From Pseudomonadota bacterium (GTDB lineage: Bacteria > Pseudomonadota > Alphaproteobacteria > Acetobacterales > Acetobacteraceae), in the NCBI GenBank assembly GCA_019351895.1, contig JABBOH010000002.1, positions 53,325 to 93,735 on the forward strand: a stretch of DNA of 40,411 nt. The letters run 5' to 3'. The notes under the pieces are model-generated. The model saw only the letters and a program-made list of their open reading frames with translations. It made no database searches and was not told the origin of the DNA. The translations under genes were made by a program, and so were the position numbers. Shown piece by piece: positions 6,349-12,156 of this stretch (positions within the stretch are counted from its first letter, which is position 1; every line of letters begins with the position of its first letter).

Positions 6349-7203
6349 ATGACCGTCGGGCGGGTCCTCGTCATCGCGGGCTCGGACAGTGGCGGCGGCG
6401 CGGGCATCCAGGCCGACATCAAGGCGATCATGGCCCTGGGCGGATATGCCACGACGGCGCTGACGGCGCTGACGGCGCAGAACACGCGCGGCGTCTCGGC
6501 CGTGCTGCTGGTTCCACAGCAGTTCCTGCTGGCGCAGATCGACGCCGTCATGGCGGACATCGGCGCCGACGCCATCAAAACCGGCATGCTGCCCGACACC
6601 GACAGCATCGCGTCCGTCGCCGGTTTCATCGCCAGCCTCACGCCCGCGCTGCCCTTCGTCATGGACCCGGTGATGGTCGCGACCAGCGGCGACCGGCTGC
6701 AGAGCGAGGAGGCACTCCACGCACTCAAGACGCGCCTCATCCCGCTCGCGACGGTCATCACGCCCAACATCCCGGAGGCGGAACTGCTGCTCGGGACCGC
6801 CATCCCGGACGAGGCGGCGCAACGCGAGGCCGCGGTGCGGCTTCTGGCACTCGGTGCTGAGGCCGTGCTCGTGAAGGGCGGCCACCTGCCGGGCGAGACG
6901 ATCACGGACATCCTCGCGACCCGCTACGGGGTGGATGTCATGAGCGGGGCGCGAATCGCATCCACCAGCACCCACGGCACCGGCTGCACGCTTGCCAGCG
7001 CCATCGCGGCCGGGCTTGCCCAGGGGATGACGCTTTCGGATGCCGTGCATCGCGCCCGCGCCTATGTGACCGCGGCGATCCAGGCGGCGCCCGGCCTCGG
7101 CGGCGGCCATGGTCCGCTCGGTCATGGCGTGACGGTCGATGCCGCCCGAATCGAGGCGCTCGGCCCTGGGGCGCTGGCCAGCGGGACGCTCGCCCGCTCT
7201 TGA
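6349..7203 (+). CDS. thiD: Bifunctional hydroxymethylpyrimidine kinase/phosphomethylpyrimidine kinase ThiD
   Basis: Phosphorylates HMP and HMP-phosphate in thiamine synthesis; a ribokinase-fold cytosolic enzyme. The N-terminus VLVIAGSDSGGGAGIQADIK is diagnostic, as is the segment TALTAQNTRGV. The C-terminal anion hole and catalytic base are in STHGTGCTLASAIAA. It is 284 aa long from the ATG at 6349; a TTG at 6340 overlapping the glmM stop would add three residues. The stop codon overlaps the TTG start of the next gene (TTGA), suggesting translational coupling. No thiamine riboswitch was seen upstream, and none would be expected within an operon. Confidence 0.95.
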   Translation: MTVGRVLVIAGSDSGGGAGIQADIKAIMALGGYATTALTALTAQNTRGVSAVLLVPQQFLLAQIDAVMADIGADAIKTGMLPDTDSIASVAGFIASLTPALPFVMDPVMVATSGDRLQSEEALHALKTRLIPLATVITPNIPEAELLLGTAIPDEAAQREAAVRLLALGAEAVLVKGGHLPGETITDILATRYGVDVMSGARIASTSTHGTGCTLASAIAAGLAQGMTLSDAVHRARAYVTAAIQAAPGLGGGHGPLGHGVTVDAARIEALGPGALASGTLARS

Positions 7204-8312
7204 GTGGGCCCGCCGCCGCGCCGCTGCGGCACCACAACCTGCCGTTGACATCGATCCGCGGTTTCGCCGCGCTCTGGGTCGTGGGCAATCATCTGCAGTT
7301 CGAGCTGGCCTACAGCGGCTACCATTTCGCCGGCTGGCTGTTCCGCCCGGGCTATGTCGCGGTCGATATCTTCTTCGTGCTGAGCGGCTTCGTGATCGCC
7401 GCCGTCCATCGGGACCTGACGCGGGCAGGTCTTGCCGACTTCTTCCTGCGCCGCGTGTTCCGGCTCTATCCGCTGCACCTGTTCGTGCTGGCGGTGATCC
7501 TGGCGCTATGGCTCTGGAGCGAGGCGCGATACGGCGCGCACGACCCGACCGAGCGGCTGCGCGACCTGCCGATTGTCGTCCTGCTGCTGCAGCCTTACCT
7601 GATCCACGGCCTGACCTGGAACACGGTCAGCTGGTCGATCGGGGTCGAGATCCTTTGCTACGCCCTGTTCCCCCTCGCCATCATCGGCGTACGGCGGCTG
7701 GAGCCGGTCGGCTGCGCCCTCATCCTGCTCATGATCGCGGCGGTCGAGCGGCATGTGCATTCGGAACTTGTCTGGGGCTGGCCGGCCATCGCGCGCGGCC
7801 TCGCCGGGTTCGGATTGGGGATGGTGGTGCAGCAGATGACCGTGCTGTCGCCGGTCCCGCGCCGCTCGACCGCCACTCTGCTCGAGATCGGCGCGCTCGC
7901 CGGCATGCTTTTGGCCGTGGCTACCGATGACCTGCGCGTCATCCCGCTCGGTGCGGCGGTGCTGATCTGGGGCCTGTCGACGGAACGGGGAATTGTCGCG
8001 CGGGCGCTCTCGGCCGGATGGTGCGTCTGGCTCGGGCGCGTCTCCTTCTCCGTCTATCTCATCCATCCGACGCTCATCGACCTGGCCTTCGTCTTGCTGC
8101 CGCCGGCGCGCCTCGGTCTCGGACACGCGGCGGACGGGATGGTCTGGGCGGCGCTCATGGTGCTGCTGCTGCTGGCGCTTGCCACAATCACCTGGGCCAC
8201 CGTCGAGGAACCTGCGCGACGCCTGGGCGTTCGGCTCGCCGAACGCCCAGGCGAGGTAACCACGGGCCCAGCGGGCGCGAACTCTCGGCAAAGGGAGCGG
8301 GGTTTGCCATGA
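7200..8312 (+). CDS. Acyltransferase 3 family membrane protein (OafA/YrhL-like)
   Basis: Polytopic inner-membrane protein of about 370 aa with roughly ten hydrophobic segments. The family hallmark near the N-terminus is the R-F-A-A-L-x-V-x-x-x-H pattern at LTSIRGFAALWVVGNHLQ, followed by GYVAVDIFFVLSGFVIA and RRVFRLYPLHLFVL. Members transfer acetyl or other acyl groups to sugars of exopolysaccharide, O-antigen or lipids; the acceptor here cannot be read from sequence. Translation most likely starts at TTG 7200 inside the thiD stop (TTGA overlap). Its stop overlaps the ATG of the DUF1223 gene (ATGA). A SigF-type promoter element lies in its last 60 bases and would serve the next gene. Confidence 0.88.
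   Translation: MSGPAAAPLRHHNLPLTSIRGFAALWVVGNHLQFELAYSGYHFAGWLFRPGYVAVDIFFVLSGFVIAAVHRDLTRAGLADFFLRRVFRLYPLHLFVLAVILALWLWSEARYGAHDPTERLRDLPIVVLLLQPYLIHGLTWNTVSWSIGVEILCYALFPLAIIGVRRLEPVGCALILLMIAAVERHVHSELVWGWPAIARGLAGFGLGMVVQQMTVLSPVPRRSTATLLEIGALAGMLLAVATDDLRVIPLGAAVLIWGLSTERGIVARALSAGWCVWLGRVSFSVYLIHPTLIDLAFVLLPPARLGLGHAADGMVWAALMVLLLLALATITWATVEEPARRLGVRLAERPGEVTTGPAGANSRQRERGLP
8256..8281 (+). promoter_or_regulatory. SigF-type ECF promoter (GTAACC-N16-CGAA) upstream of the DUF1223 gene
   Basis: GTAACC at 8256-8261, a 16-nt spacer, then CGAA at 8278-8281; the DUF1223 ATG is 27 bases further on. The element is identical in both boxes and in spacing to the one upstream of the sigF gene in this window (10845-10870, minus strand). 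It also matches the consensus I recall for Caulobacter SigF. It lies inside the end of the acyltransferase gene. Confidence 0.68.
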
Positions 8313-9034
8313 GATGGGTCGCGACATTGCTGCTTGGGGCGCTGGCCGTTGCGGTCGTCTCCGTGCCTTTCGCCATGGCCGCCTCGGCGGCTGTCGGCAA
8401 TCCGCTGGTGCTGGAACTGTTCACCTCGCAGGGCTGCTCCTCCTGCCCGCCGGCGGACGCCTATCTCGGCAAGCTCAAGCGGGAGCACCCCGATTTCCTC
8501 GTGCTCGACAATCACGTCGATTACTGGAACGGGCTCGGCTGGCGCGACCCCTTCTCCCTGCCCGAGGCGACCGCCCGTCAGCAGGCGTATGACCGCCTGC
8601 TCGGCAGCGAGGTCTACACGCCGCAACTCGTTGTTGGAGGGACACGTCAGGCCATCGGGTCCGACCCCGACGGCGTCGCCGCCGCCATTGCAGGCGCGTA
8701 TCGGGACCGGGCCGCATCCTCACCCGTGGCCCTCACGCTTTCCCCTCAGGGCCCCGATCTGGCGATCGACGTGGCGCCGGGAGCGGGACACGCGCAGCTA
8801 TGGCTGGTGGGTTACGACGACCGTCACACCACCAGCATCGGCCGTGGGGAGAATACCGGCCTCACCGAGACCGAGGTCGATATCGTCCGCTCGATCCGCC
8901 CGGTCGCGGACTGGGACGGGAGCGCCGTGCACCTGCGCGTGGCGCGGCCTATCGGGCAACGGGTCGCGGTGCTGCTGCAGCAGGCGGATGGACGCATCCT
9001 GAGCGGGGCGACGCTATCCGCCGCCGGCACGTGA
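8309..9034 (+). CDS. Secreted DUF1223 thioredoxin-like protein
   Basis: A 241-aa protein with a Sec-type signal peptide (hydrophobic residues about 4-24, small residues to about 28). The DUF1223 signature follows: LVLELFTSQGCSSCPPADA with a CxxC pair at C43 and C46, then the VDYWNGLGWRDPF and VYTPQLVVGG segments. The fold is thioredoxin-like and the family is periplasmic; the redox partner is unknown. The ATG overlaps the acyltransferase stop (ATGA) and has a good ribosome site (GGGAGCGGGG, 8293-8302). A SigF-type promoter sits just upstream, so it may be induced with the sigF-nrsF operon under metal or oxidative stress; that is inference. Its last 21 bases overlap the end of the convergent DUF6314 gene. 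Confidence 0.88.
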   Translation: MRWVATLLLGALAVAVVSVPFAMAASAAVGNPLVLELFTSQGCSSCPPADAYLGKLKREHPDFLVLDNHVDYWNGLGWRDPFSLPEATARQQAYDRLLGSEVYTPQLVVGGTRQAIGSDPDGVAAAIAGAYRDRAASSPVALTLSPQGPDLAIDVAPGAGHAQLWLVGYDDRHTTSIGRGENTGLTETEVDIVRSIRPVADWDGSAVHLRVARPIGQRVAVLLQQADGRILSGATLSAAGT

Positions 9035-9496
9035 GAAGATCGAAATCACCACAAGGTTTTTGCGCGGGCCGGTGATCCGCCAGCCAAGGCTCCACCGGTT
9101 GGGACCGAGGATGCGGTAGCGTCCGCGATAGGTGTCGGGCGCGCAGTCATGCGCGGTCCAGGCCGTGCGGGAGGCGAACACGGCCTGATGGAACGGCCGC
9201 CCATCGGCGAACAGCACATCGAAGGCGGCCGGGCCGCCGATGACGAAGCGATAGCTCTGCCGCGCCTCCATCTCCGACTGCGCCAGGGCAAGCCGCCCAT
9301 GCTCCGTGAAAAGCAAAGCCTCGCCCAAGGGCGAGAAATTCGCCGCGCCGCGCAGGCGGCCGGTTTGGCACGAGGTCAGGTCCCGGATGCGGCGGCGGAG
9401 AACCCAGTCGCCGCGAAGATAGATGCCGATCGGGGCCGGAAGCCGCGGTCTCTCGTCATCCGGCCGAAGCGTCCCGGGCCCTGGTGTCGCGTTCAT
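9014..9496 (-). CDS. DUF6314 family protein
   Basis: A 160-aa cytosolic protein without signal peptide or membrane segment. It starts with YLRGDWVLRRRIRD and continues with GEALLFTEHGRL, YRFVIGGPAAFDVLFADGRPFH, HDCAPDTYRGRYRI and W-x-W-RITGPRKN near the end, a set I associate with DUF6314, a small beta-barrel-like family of unknown function. The 3' end overlaps the convergent DUF1223 gene by 21 bp. It lies downstream of nrsF on the same strand with a 15-bp gap, so it is probably the third gene of the sigF operon, or at least reads from it. No functional residue can be named. Confidence 0.8.
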   Translation of the reverse strand: MNATPGPGTLRPDDERPRLPAPIGIYLRGDWVLRRRIRDLTSCQTGRLRGAANFSPLGEALLFTEHGRLALAQSEMEARQSYRFVIGGPAAFDVLFADGRPFHQAVFASRTAWTAHDCAPDTYRGRYRILGPNRWSLGWRITGPRKNLVVISIFSRAGGG

Positions 9497-9511
9497 GCTC
9501 GGCGACCGGAG

Positions 9512-10186
9512 CTACCGGAACAGCCGGCTGCCGAACAGGCGGTTGAACCCGACCACGAGCCCCACCGCCAATGCGTGAAAGACAAGATCGGTGACCGATG
9601 CGTCGTAGGGGTGGAAGAAGTTGAGCAGGGTCGCCGCCGCCCCCGCCGCCGCCAAGCCGCCCAGCGCCAAGGTCAGATTGGGCCGCAGCGGAAACGTCCA
9701 GCGCAGCAGCACCATCAGCAGCAGCGACAACGGCAGGGACACGCCGAGAATGAAGATCAGGCAATGGTCGCCTTGGGCAAAGGTCGCGTCGTGCACCATG
9801 GGCAACGCCCAGCCGCGGGCGCAGCCCATGCCGCTCTCCCAGATCCACAGGGCGAGGGCCGGCAGCGGCAGCAGCGCCCAGCGCGGGCTGCGTCCCGGCA
9901 CGCTCGTCATGAAGGCCGCCACCACGGCCAGGATGCCGGTCACCCCGGAGGCCAGGGCCGCCAGCCACATGTCCGGCGCCGCCATGAGCCGCCGCATCAT
10001 GGCATGGAGATCGGACATAGAGGCGAGGTAGCCGCCGAAGGCGATGACGACCACGAGCCAGCCCGCGGCCAGCCCCACCGGCGAGATCCGCCGCACCGGC
10101 GCGAGTTCGCGCGCCAGCGTCTCGATCAGCCGCTCATGCGGGTTCTGCCCCGGCCCGATGGCGTCGGACGGCGTGGCTCTAGACAT
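9512..10186 (-). CDS. nrsF: NrsF-like (DUF1109) membrane anti-sigma factor
   Basis: A 224-aa protein with six predicted membrane segments (about residues 38-55, 73-92, 103-118, 143-162, 171-189, 201-216), the layout of NrsF, the negative regulator of SigF in Caulobacter. It contains just two cysteines, C122 (GMGCARGW) and C142 (GDHCLIF), on either side of a loop; paired conserved cysteines in this family are reported to be needed for sensing metals. The C-terminal FHPYDASVTDLVFHAL segment is also family-like. The start used is the ATG at 10186, which overlaps the sigF stop region by 8 bp, so the two are translationally coupled. It should hold the sigma factor at the inner membrane until a stress signal arrives. 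Confidence 0.88.
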   Translation of the reverse strand: MSRATPSDAIGPGQNPHERLIETLARELAPVRRISPVGLAAGWLVVVIAFGGYLASMSDLHAMMRRLMAAPDMWLAALASGVTGILAVVAAFMTSVPGRSPRWALLPLPALALWIWESGMGCARGWALPMVHDATFAQGDHCLIFILGVSLPLSLLLMVLLRWTFPLRPNLTLALGGLAAAGAAATLLNFFHPYDASVTDLVFHALAVGLVVGFNRLFGSRLFR

Positions 10187-10784
10187 CGTCCACCCCCCCG
10201 TCCGTTGCCACCCCAAGCTTGACGCGCAGCGTCTTGATCGCGCGGTGCAGATTGACCTTGAGAGCCACTTTGGAGCGGCCGGTCGCGGCAGAAGCTTCGT
10301 CGAGGGATTGACCACGCAGGGCGAGCCGGTCCACCGCTTGGCGCTGCCCCGGCGGCAGGGTTTCGAGCGAGGCCCTCAGATCGCGCGAGCGGGTCTGCGC
10401 ATCCAGAACACCGTCGGCATCCGCAGCCTCCTCGGCATGGGCCTCGTAGGCCATCGGGTCATGCACCTCGTGCACCGCGTGGCGGCCGTGATGGCGCAGG
10501 CTGTCGATCGCACGGCGCTGCGCGATGGCGCGCAGCCAGGGCAGAAACGGTCGAGCGGGATCGTAGGTGGCGCGGGCCCGATGGATCGTGATCAAAACCT
10601 CCTGCACCACGTCATCCACGCGATCCGGTGCCACGCCCTGGCGGCGGGCCGCCTGCGCGATGACCGGTATGCAGTCCCGCAGCAATGCCTGATACGCGGA
10701 CGCGTCGCCTAATTGCGCGGCTGCCATCAGCCGGGCAAGACGCGTCTCCCGCTCGTCCATCACTGCAGGGTCCGGGTCGGCCAT
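10179..10784 (-). CDS. sigF: ECF RNA polymerase sigma factor, SigF type
   Basis: A 201-aa sigma factor with region 2 (DVVQEVLITIHRARATYDP, then FLPWLRAIAQRRAIDSLR) and region 4 (LPPGQRQAVDRLALRGQSL, then AATGRSKVALKVNLHRAI helix-turn-helix). The overlapping nrsF gene places it with the DUF1109-linked ECF group. The ATG at 10784 is preferred over in-frame starts at 10829 and 10874: the GTAACC-N16-CGAA promoter lies at 10845-10870, so the longest version would begin upstream of its own promoter. An ATG at 10760 is also possible. Autoregulation is likely, because the promoter type matches the sigma type. Confidence 0.9.
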   Translation of the reverse strand: MADPDPAVMDERETRLARLMAAAQLGDASAYQALLRDCIPVIAQAARRQGVAPDRVDDVVQEVLITIHRARATYDPARPFLPWLRAIAQRRAIDSLRHHGRHAVHEVHDPMAYEAHAEEAADADGVLDAQTRSRDLRASLETLPPGQRQAVDRLALRGQSLDEASAATGRSKVALKVNLHRAIKTLRVKLGVATDGGVDDV

Positions 10785-10844
10785 ACCATGAAGGCAGCGT
10801 AATCCTTCGGTGCCGCCGGCGGTAGCCATCCCTTCGCTTCTCCA

Positions 10845-10870
10845 TTCGCCGGAAACCGAACGGCGGTTAC
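10845..10870 (-). promoter_or_regulatory. Autoregulatory SigF-type promoter (GTAACC-N16-CGAA)
   Basis: Reading the minus strand from 10870, GTAACC (10870-10865), 16 bases, then CGAA (10848-10845). The sigF ATG begins 60 bases downstream. The same two boxes with the same spacing occur upstream of the DUF1223 gene. The element sits in the divergent region between sigF and serC. Confidence 0.75.
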
Positions 10871-10971
10871 GCACGCCGCCGGATTGCGAAGGCTCGCGCG
10901 ATCGATTACATGCGGCGGCGGGTCACGCCCCCCCACCGGGGCGCTTCTCTTCTGAAAGGGAGAGCCATTAG

Positions 10972-12156
10972 ATGGCACGCCTCACGAAGCCGGACATCCG
11001 TCCGCAGAACCCCAATTTCTCATCCGGCCCCTGCGCCAAGCGCCCCGGCTTCACGCTGGAGGCGCTATCCGGCGCCATGCTGGGCCGCAGCCATCGCGCG
11101 GAGGAGCCGAAGGCCCGCCTCGCGGAGGTGATCGAGCGCTCCCGCGCCATTCTCGGCATGCCGGCGGACTGGAAACTCGGCATCGTCCCCGCGTCGGACA
11201 CCGGCGCGGTCGAGATGGCGATGTGGTCCCTGCTGGGCGAGCGGCCCGTGGATGTCCTCGCGCATGAGAGCTTCTCGGAAGGCTGGGCGACCGACATCGT
11301 CAAGCAGCTGAAGCTCGACGGCGCGCGGGTGCTCGGCGCCGAGTACGGCGCGCTCCCCGATGCCGCCGCGGTCGACCCGGCGCATGACGTGGTGCTCGCC
11401 TGGAACGGCACGACCTCCGGCGTGCGCTTCGCCGACGGCGATTTCATCGCGGACAACCGCGCGGGCCTCGTGATCTGCGACGCGACCTCGGCGGCCTTCG
11501 CCATGGACCTGCCGTGGGCCAAGCTCGATGTCGTCACATGGTCCTGGCAGAAGGTGCTGGGCGGCGAAGCGGCGCACGGCATGCTCGCCCTTTCGCCCCG
11601 CGCCGTCGCGCGGCTGCTGAGCTACAAGCCGCCCCGGCCCCTGCCGAAGATCTTCCGGCTGACCAGCGGCGGCAAGCTGATCGACGGAATTTTTGTGGGC
11701 GAAACGATCAACACGCCCTCCATGCTCTGCGTCGAGGATGCGCTCGACGGGCTGCGCTGGGCCGAGGGCATCGGCGGCCTACAAGCTCTGATCGCCCGCA
11801 GCGAGGCGAACCTCGCCTGCATCGCGGAGTGGGTGGCTGCCAGCGGCTGGGCGTGCTTCCTGGCGCAGGACCCCGCTACGCGATCCTCGACCTCGATCTG
11901 CCTCACCGTCACCGCGCCGTGGTTCGCGGCCCTCGACAGCGCGACGAAGGCGAAGGCCGCGAAGCGTCTCGCGGCGCTCCTCGAAGCCGAGGGCGTCGCC
12001 TACGACATCGCTTCCTATCGCGACGCGCCGCCGGGTCTGCGCATCTGGGGCGGCGCCACTGTCGAGACGGCGGACATCGCCGCGCTGCTCCCCTGGCTCG
12101 ACTGGGCCGAGGCCGAGGTCGCCGGCGAATTCGCCACCAAGCAGGCTGCGGAGTAA
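10972..12156 (+). CDS. serC: Phosphoserine aminotransferase SerC
   Basis: PLP enzyme converting 3-phosphohydroxypyruvate and glutamate to phosphoserine in serine synthesis; it may also act in pyridoxine synthesis. The N-terminus [20 protein letters not shown] is typical of the alphaproteobacterial-type SerC, which differs from the E. coli form. The PLP lysine is K194 in [15 protein letters not shown]. The 394-aa length is normal. A strong ribosome site (GAAAGGGAGAG) precedes the ATG. The stop is 5 bases before serA, so serC and serA form an operon that makes serine from 3-phosphoglycerate; serB is not in the window. Confidence 0.96.

Follow-up and report, generated by a model that had tools for sequence, protein, structure and literature searches.

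Why should a gene for a DUF1223 protein share a promoter-like element with the gene of a nearby sigma factor on the opposite strand? The question arises from a window of 40,411 nucleotides (nt), the whole stretch of DNA that was analyzed, from an Acetobacteraceae bacterium (contig JABBOH010000002.1). Here GTAACC-N16-CGAA occurs exactly twice: on the plus strand at 8256 to 8281 (-35 box 8256-8261, -10 box 8278-8281), ahead of the DUF1223 gene, and on the minus strand at 10845 to 10870 (-35 box 10870-10865, -10 box 10848-10845), ahead of sigF, which encodes an extracytoplasmic function (ECF) sigma factor and is followed by a gene for an NrsF-like membrane anti-sigma factor. An earlier note, made from the letters alone, had reported both elements with their equal spacers, and this stands; among 100 dinucleotide shuffles the mean was 0.01 copies and none held two. 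The Caulobacter SigF consensus to which it had matched the boxes agrees with the site printed in the available portion of PMC3511200, GTAACC-N16-CGAA. We conclude that the element at 8256 very probably functions as a SigF promoter for the DUF1223 gene. The best reading of DUF1223 is as a target that recurs in SigF regulons, probably with a role in periplasmic oxidative repair. The direct basis for this reading is sequence, the positions of the sites, their conservation together with NrsF, gene company, and a predicted fold.

The two putative promoters are placed differently relative to the genes that they would serve. The DUF1223 gene (8309 to 9034, plus strand, 241 amino acids) starts at an ATG at 8309, 27 nt past the -10 box, with a purine-rich stretch in between. 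Its site lies in the last codons of an acyltransferase gene (7200 to 8312, plus strand, 370 residues), past the Pfam Acyl_transf_3 match, which stops at residue 332, and the two genes overlap at ATGA. The earlier note had placed the promoter inside the acyltransferase gene; as part of the inferred regulon this is supported, with the site in the gene's tail. Its figure of 27 to 60 nt to a start codon holds for DUF1223, and for sigF (10179 to 10829, minus strand) it depends on which start is used: the first in-frame ATG, at 10829, is 15 nt past the -10 box, and only the ATG at 10784 is at 60 nt. The best NCBIfam matches begin at residues 24 to 28 of the longer reading, and 10784 fits the homology better as the start. 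Before sigF the box is preceded by C, so that the element has the ECF16 form (T/C)GTAAC-N17-CGAA (given in the accessible parts of PMC3420878 and PMC8315932) before the sigma factor's own gene. A scan of 7900 to 11000 for sigma-70 promoters found none.

Further evidence comes from relatives. In a first set of DUF1223 loci we sought GTAACx-N15/16-CGAA between positions -300 and +60 relative to the estimated start of DUF1223. The site was present at 16 of 69 loci from genomes with NrsF and at none of the 42 from genomes in which no NrsF turned up (Fisher 2.3e-4); in its strict form it was found at 8 of 69 and 0 of 42 (p 0.019), and a reversed control matched at 0 of 111. This set counts genome G105 among those with NrsF, skips one locus whose upstream DNA was missing, and includes two loci (L130 and L131) fetched on account of linkage. 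The same pattern precedes sigF itself in 8 of 30 NrsF loci, so a true target would be expected to score roughly as DUF1223 does (16 of 69).

The same picture emerged from a named set of DUF1223 loci, comprising the top 80 of a longer list. Seven carried the site, including those of Neoroseomonas lacus and Paraburkholderia silvatlantica; NrsF was found in 24 of the 49 genomes searched for it, among them all seven with the site (7/24 versus 0/25, Fisher 0.004). Four of these loci (L225, L229, and L244, with NrsF, and L232, without) exactly duplicate loci of the first set, and L295 had been added because of its site; with these five removed, the site is found at 6 of 20 versus 0 of 24. Across both sets (192 loci, including kin and five duplicates, the duplicates lacking the site) the 120 nt ahead of DUF1223 contained 22 sites, where the remaining sequence of the loci predicts 0.2; of the 22, 16 lay at -33 to -65, measured from the first -35 base to the estimated DUF1223 start.

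Within the organism's own genome (4.70 Mb, 97.9% complete, 141 contigs), it is the position of the sites and not their number that is informative. The earlier note had held that matches at the chance rate would speak against it, and by count they do occur at that rate: GTAACC-N15-17-CGAA has 13 matches, compared with 17 for the reversed pattern. We therefore rejected the raw count as evidence, as it does not exceed its control, and gave weight to the position and company of the N16 matches, which are not what chance would give. A gene start lies within 150 nt downstream of five of the seven N16 matches, in each case within 65 nt, compared with 0 of 6 N15 or N17 matches and 0 of 17 reversed ones (5/7 versus 0/17, Fisher 5e-4). 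The five include sigF, its start counted by homology; by the gene caller alone the figure is 4 of 7 (versus 0/17, Fisher 0.0033). The genes so placed are sigF, the DUF1223 gene, msrA, a DoxD-like gene, and a small-protein gene. The msrA gene (PF01625) begins 65 nt after its site, and its product has an N-terminal hydrophobic stretch by which it would be secreted. The DoxD-like gene (PF04173, 20.7 bits, below the cut-off of 22.7) has the site right at its first ATG, so that a later start is likely, and it lies near genes for a molybdopterin oxidoreductase (Oxidored_molyb) and a cytochrome b561. Of the other two N16 sites, one is deep within coding sequence and one is on contig C81. A relaxed pattern, GTAACN17CGAA, added four sites, each within a called gene and one lying 113 nt ahead of a called start, and was not used.

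Gene company links DUF1223 to the sigma factor in a second way. Among 150 genomes of the family, DUF1223 occurs in 50, NrsF in 72, and both in 31 (co-occurrence p 0.012); in 7 of the 31 (G000, G053, G010, G132, G086, G025, and G057) no more than about 6 kb separates the two. G105 is not among the genomes listed with an NrsF match, and tblastn gives an NrsF fragment adjoining its DUF1223 gene. In a sample of the class, DUF1223 is present in 180 of 385 genomes; NrsF was found in 36 of the 134 DUF1223 genomes searched and stands beside DUF1223 in at least two (G501 and G393) among the matches listed. In G053, a genome from the same genus, msrB-msrA-DUF1223 has a site at its head and is convergent with a sigF-nrsF pair that bears its own site; in G057 a site stands ahead of a run made up of msrA, a decayed piece, DUF1223, and a DsbD_N gene. 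Cytochrome b561 and molybdopterin oxidoreductase genes are near in G132, G025, G010, and G105. Locus L228 repeats the window's layout minus the DUF6314 gene (site, DUF1223, convergent nrsF-sigF), and in Paramagnetospirillum caucaseum (L252) sigF-nrsF diverges from DUF1223, and only the sigF side has a strict site. Several site-bearing DUF1223 genes resemble single-gene units. The record for L228 is titled Mycobacterium sp. KBS0706; the locus is of an alphaproteobacterial kind, and the label may be wrong.

The earlier note's proposal that DUF1223 belongs to the SigF regulon is thus supported by the site having been found before DUF1223 only in NrsF genomes, by frequent proximity to sigF-nrsF, and by own-genome N16 sites before typical targets such as msrA. 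Besides the chance-level genome count, several results weigh against it. Of the 69 loci from NrsF genomes, 53 lack such a site, and none of 9 Bradyrhizobium-like DUF1223 loci carries its EcfF form. Msr or molybdopterin neighbors are not enriched at site-bearing DUF1223 loci (2/11 versus 11/109, p 0.34, 120 loci). The loci are related by descent, so the p values given above are optimistic. The target lists of SigF, EcfF, and RpoE7, in the portions available, do not name DUF1223, although some of their genes are called only hypothetical, as are some EcfF targets in the available text of PMC3420878. In a literature search that most subscription papers lay outside, no title or abstract opening tied DUF1223 to SigF, which does not prove novelty; the family is named in papers on thioredoxin-like folds and on pear traits, with no function found in the parts of them that were accessible.

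Could the site before DUF1223 be a chance match in acyltransferase codons, with the gene transcribed only as part of the upstream operon? The genome-wide count, the ATGA overlap, and the one N16 site deep in coding sequence would all agree with this, yet the site recurs before DUF1223 amid differing flanking genes, is found only in NrsF genomes, and in the window lies beyond the acyltransferase domain and 27 nt ahead of the DUF1223 start, with a purine-rich stretch between; we consider coincidence very unlikely. It is just as hard to favor a different sigma factor of similar specificity acting at the site in place of the adjacent SigF. Cross-talk between paralogous systems is possible in Bradyrhizobium, according to the available part of PMC3420878, and on contig C60 the genome has another NrsF homologue with no SigF beside it. 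Against this, our search of the genome turned up a single close SigF homologue (at the next match, identity falls to 24%, E 1e-4), sigF bears the same site, and DUF1223 lies near sigF-nrsF in several lineages, which together make another sigma factor highly improbable. The C60 homologue (G000:C60:1237-1845, locus L118) is on a short contig, its neighbors by eye being resolvase, multicopper-oxidase-like, and permease genes, and this orphan anti-sigma gene may lie in a metal-resistance island.

A further possibility is that SigF does control DUF1223 but for metal rather than oxidative stress, the product being a thiol protein that handles copper, for instance. In Caulobacter, chromate, cadmium, and copper elicit a SigF response (PMC3511200 and PMC8224329, as far as their accessible text goes). 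Among the scanned genes behind own-genome N16 sites, however, there was no DUF692 or DUF2282 match, and the company is of the Msr and molybdopterin oxidoreductase type. Since metal and oxidative stress overlap, the distinction is a weak one, and we regard a metal-specific role as unlikely. The earlier note had left metal and oxidative stress side by side; the metal half found no specific support, and the gene company points to periplasmic methionine sulfoxide repair.

The predicted fold fits a thiol-disulfide role for the DUF1223 protein. The DUF1223 product (PF06764, 180.8 bits against a cut-off of 30.7) is, by its AlphaFold model (predicted local distance difference test [pLDDT] 91), a thioredoxin-like fold with a CxxC before a helix: its CSSC motif spans residues 43 to 46, and Cys43 and Cys46, which precede helix 46-59, are invariant in 32 sequences. 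The best fold match is 2axo (E 3e-19), the structure of Agrobacterium Atu2684, which belongs to the same family, has a thioredoxin-like fold, and was deposited as a hypothetical protein. An N-terminal hydrophobic stretch suggests that the protein is probably secreted, and from fold and CSSC motif it would be a thiol-disulfide oxidoreductase.

SigF itself matches Sigma70_r2 (44.8 bits) and Sigma70_r4_2 (30.4 bits), both above cut-off, and no other family at E 0.001. The product of the gene behind it (9512 to 10186, minus strand) matches PF06532 at 66.3 bits (cut-off 26.8) and has about six hydrophobic segments, modeled as six long helices of at least 20 residues (pLDDT 83); it scores 19.8 bits against NCBIfam NF042994 (AntiSigF_NrsF), short of the threshold of 300. 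Its Cys142 is invariant in nine aligned sequences and matches Brucella C129 by position, the Brucella protein being outside the alignment. The second conserved cysteine (Brucella C179 type, in CPxD) is a histidine in the window protein and in those of L137, L131, and L118, and for this reason we call the protein NrsF-like, a variant subtype. Cys122, near the end of helix 3, is shared with L137 and L131 but not L118. The locus is also of interest for what looks like an NrsF variant whose cysteine has moved. This subtype, with histidine for the CPxD cysteine plus another cysteine, is shared with G010 and G393.

These features resemble known circuits in part. According to the available text of PMC3511200, Caulobacter SigF-NrsF, of group ECF16, is like the window in its promoter, its sigF-nrsF operon, and its DoxX and molybdopterin oxidoreductase targets; it differs in that the accessible part of its target table lacks DUF1223, and the window NrsF has a low NF042994 score and is missing one conserved cysteine. 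Bradyrhizobium EcfF-OsrA and Brucella BcrS-AbcS likewise pair an ECF16 sigma factor with a membrane anti-sigma factor and, in the portions available, have Msr targets and a near-identical promoter, but DUF1223 has 0 occurrences in their main texts and the nine Bradyrhizobium-like DUF1223 loci lack the site. In perchlorate islands, SigF/NrsF occurs with YedYZ and MrpX, tying SigF to periplasmic methionine sulfoxide cycling (PMC4623255, in its accessible part), and relatives of the window have related gene company; thioredoxin has 0 occurrences in that paper, and DUF1223 is not named.

We propose that GTAACC-N16-CGAA promoters place both an ECF16-type sigF-nrsF pair and the neighboring DUF1223 gene under the control of that pair. 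NrsF, with its six membrane helices and two cysteines, would release SigF when the periplasm comes under oxidative stress; which of its ends would face the periplasm we infer, as we do the signal, SigF binding, and induction. Transcription would then start near 8288 and 10838. Judging from the ATGA overlap, read-through from folP-glmM-thiD-acyltransferase may provide DUF1223 with a second supply at a basal level. The probably secreted product would exchange thiols and disulfides in the periplasm, alongside MsrA and DoxD-like proteins that SigF would drive.

More tentatively, DUF1223 could be a dedicated periplasmic thiol partner of the SigF circuit, passing electrons, for example from a membrane protein of the DsbD/CcdA type, to SigF-induced secreted MsrA and MsrB, and it may also reset the NrsF cysteine switch, closing a redox feedback loop. 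We raise this as a possibility that we would not yet favor. What points to it are msrB-msrA-DUF1223 in G053 and msrA-DUF1223-DsbD_N in G057, each headed by a SigF-type site, and the invariant cysteine pair; that DUF1223 recycles Msr enzymes is a testable guess. Pneumococcal Etrx1 and Etrx2, extracellular thioredoxin-fold proteins that reduce the surface Msr SpMsrAB2 (PMC3914529, in the part available), are a precedent for such a role, although they are surface lipoproteins of a Gram-positive organism, unlike the DUF1223 protein of the window. For a family so widespread in the class and with a solved structure, the tie to SigF across many lineages suggests a condition under which it may matter, periplasmic methionine or thiol oxidation, and candidate partners: MsrA, MsrB, and NrsF.

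Elsewhere in the locus, the order runs from the acyltransferase and DUF1223 genes on the plus strand to DUF6314, nrsF, and sigF on the minus strand and then serC on the plus strand. The DUF6314 gene (PF19834; 9014 to 9496, minus strand) lies 3' of nrsF, and its coordinates overlap the 3' end of the DUF1223 gene. At three sigF-linked loci, small, secreted-looking open reading frames (ORFs) containing methionine adjoin DUF1223 (L127:5777-6142, L125:7115-7375, and L130:4611-4901) and resemble the MrpX peptides of perchlorate islands. A composition filter for methionine-rich small secreted ORFs gave no significant association with the site (1/30 versus 0/150), and it missed the two noticed by eye in L125 and L130. 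In the own genome, a 92-amino-acid protein without a Pfam match (L119:5256-5534), probably secreted, is encoded 39 nt after an intergenic N16 site. On contig C81 (G000:C81, L121:4092-5166), a consensus SigF site, left out of the five with a nearby gene start, stands several hundred nt before shortened, decayed pieces of cytochrome b and molybdopterin oxidoreductase genes, apparently a SigF promoter left behind by an operon now lost.

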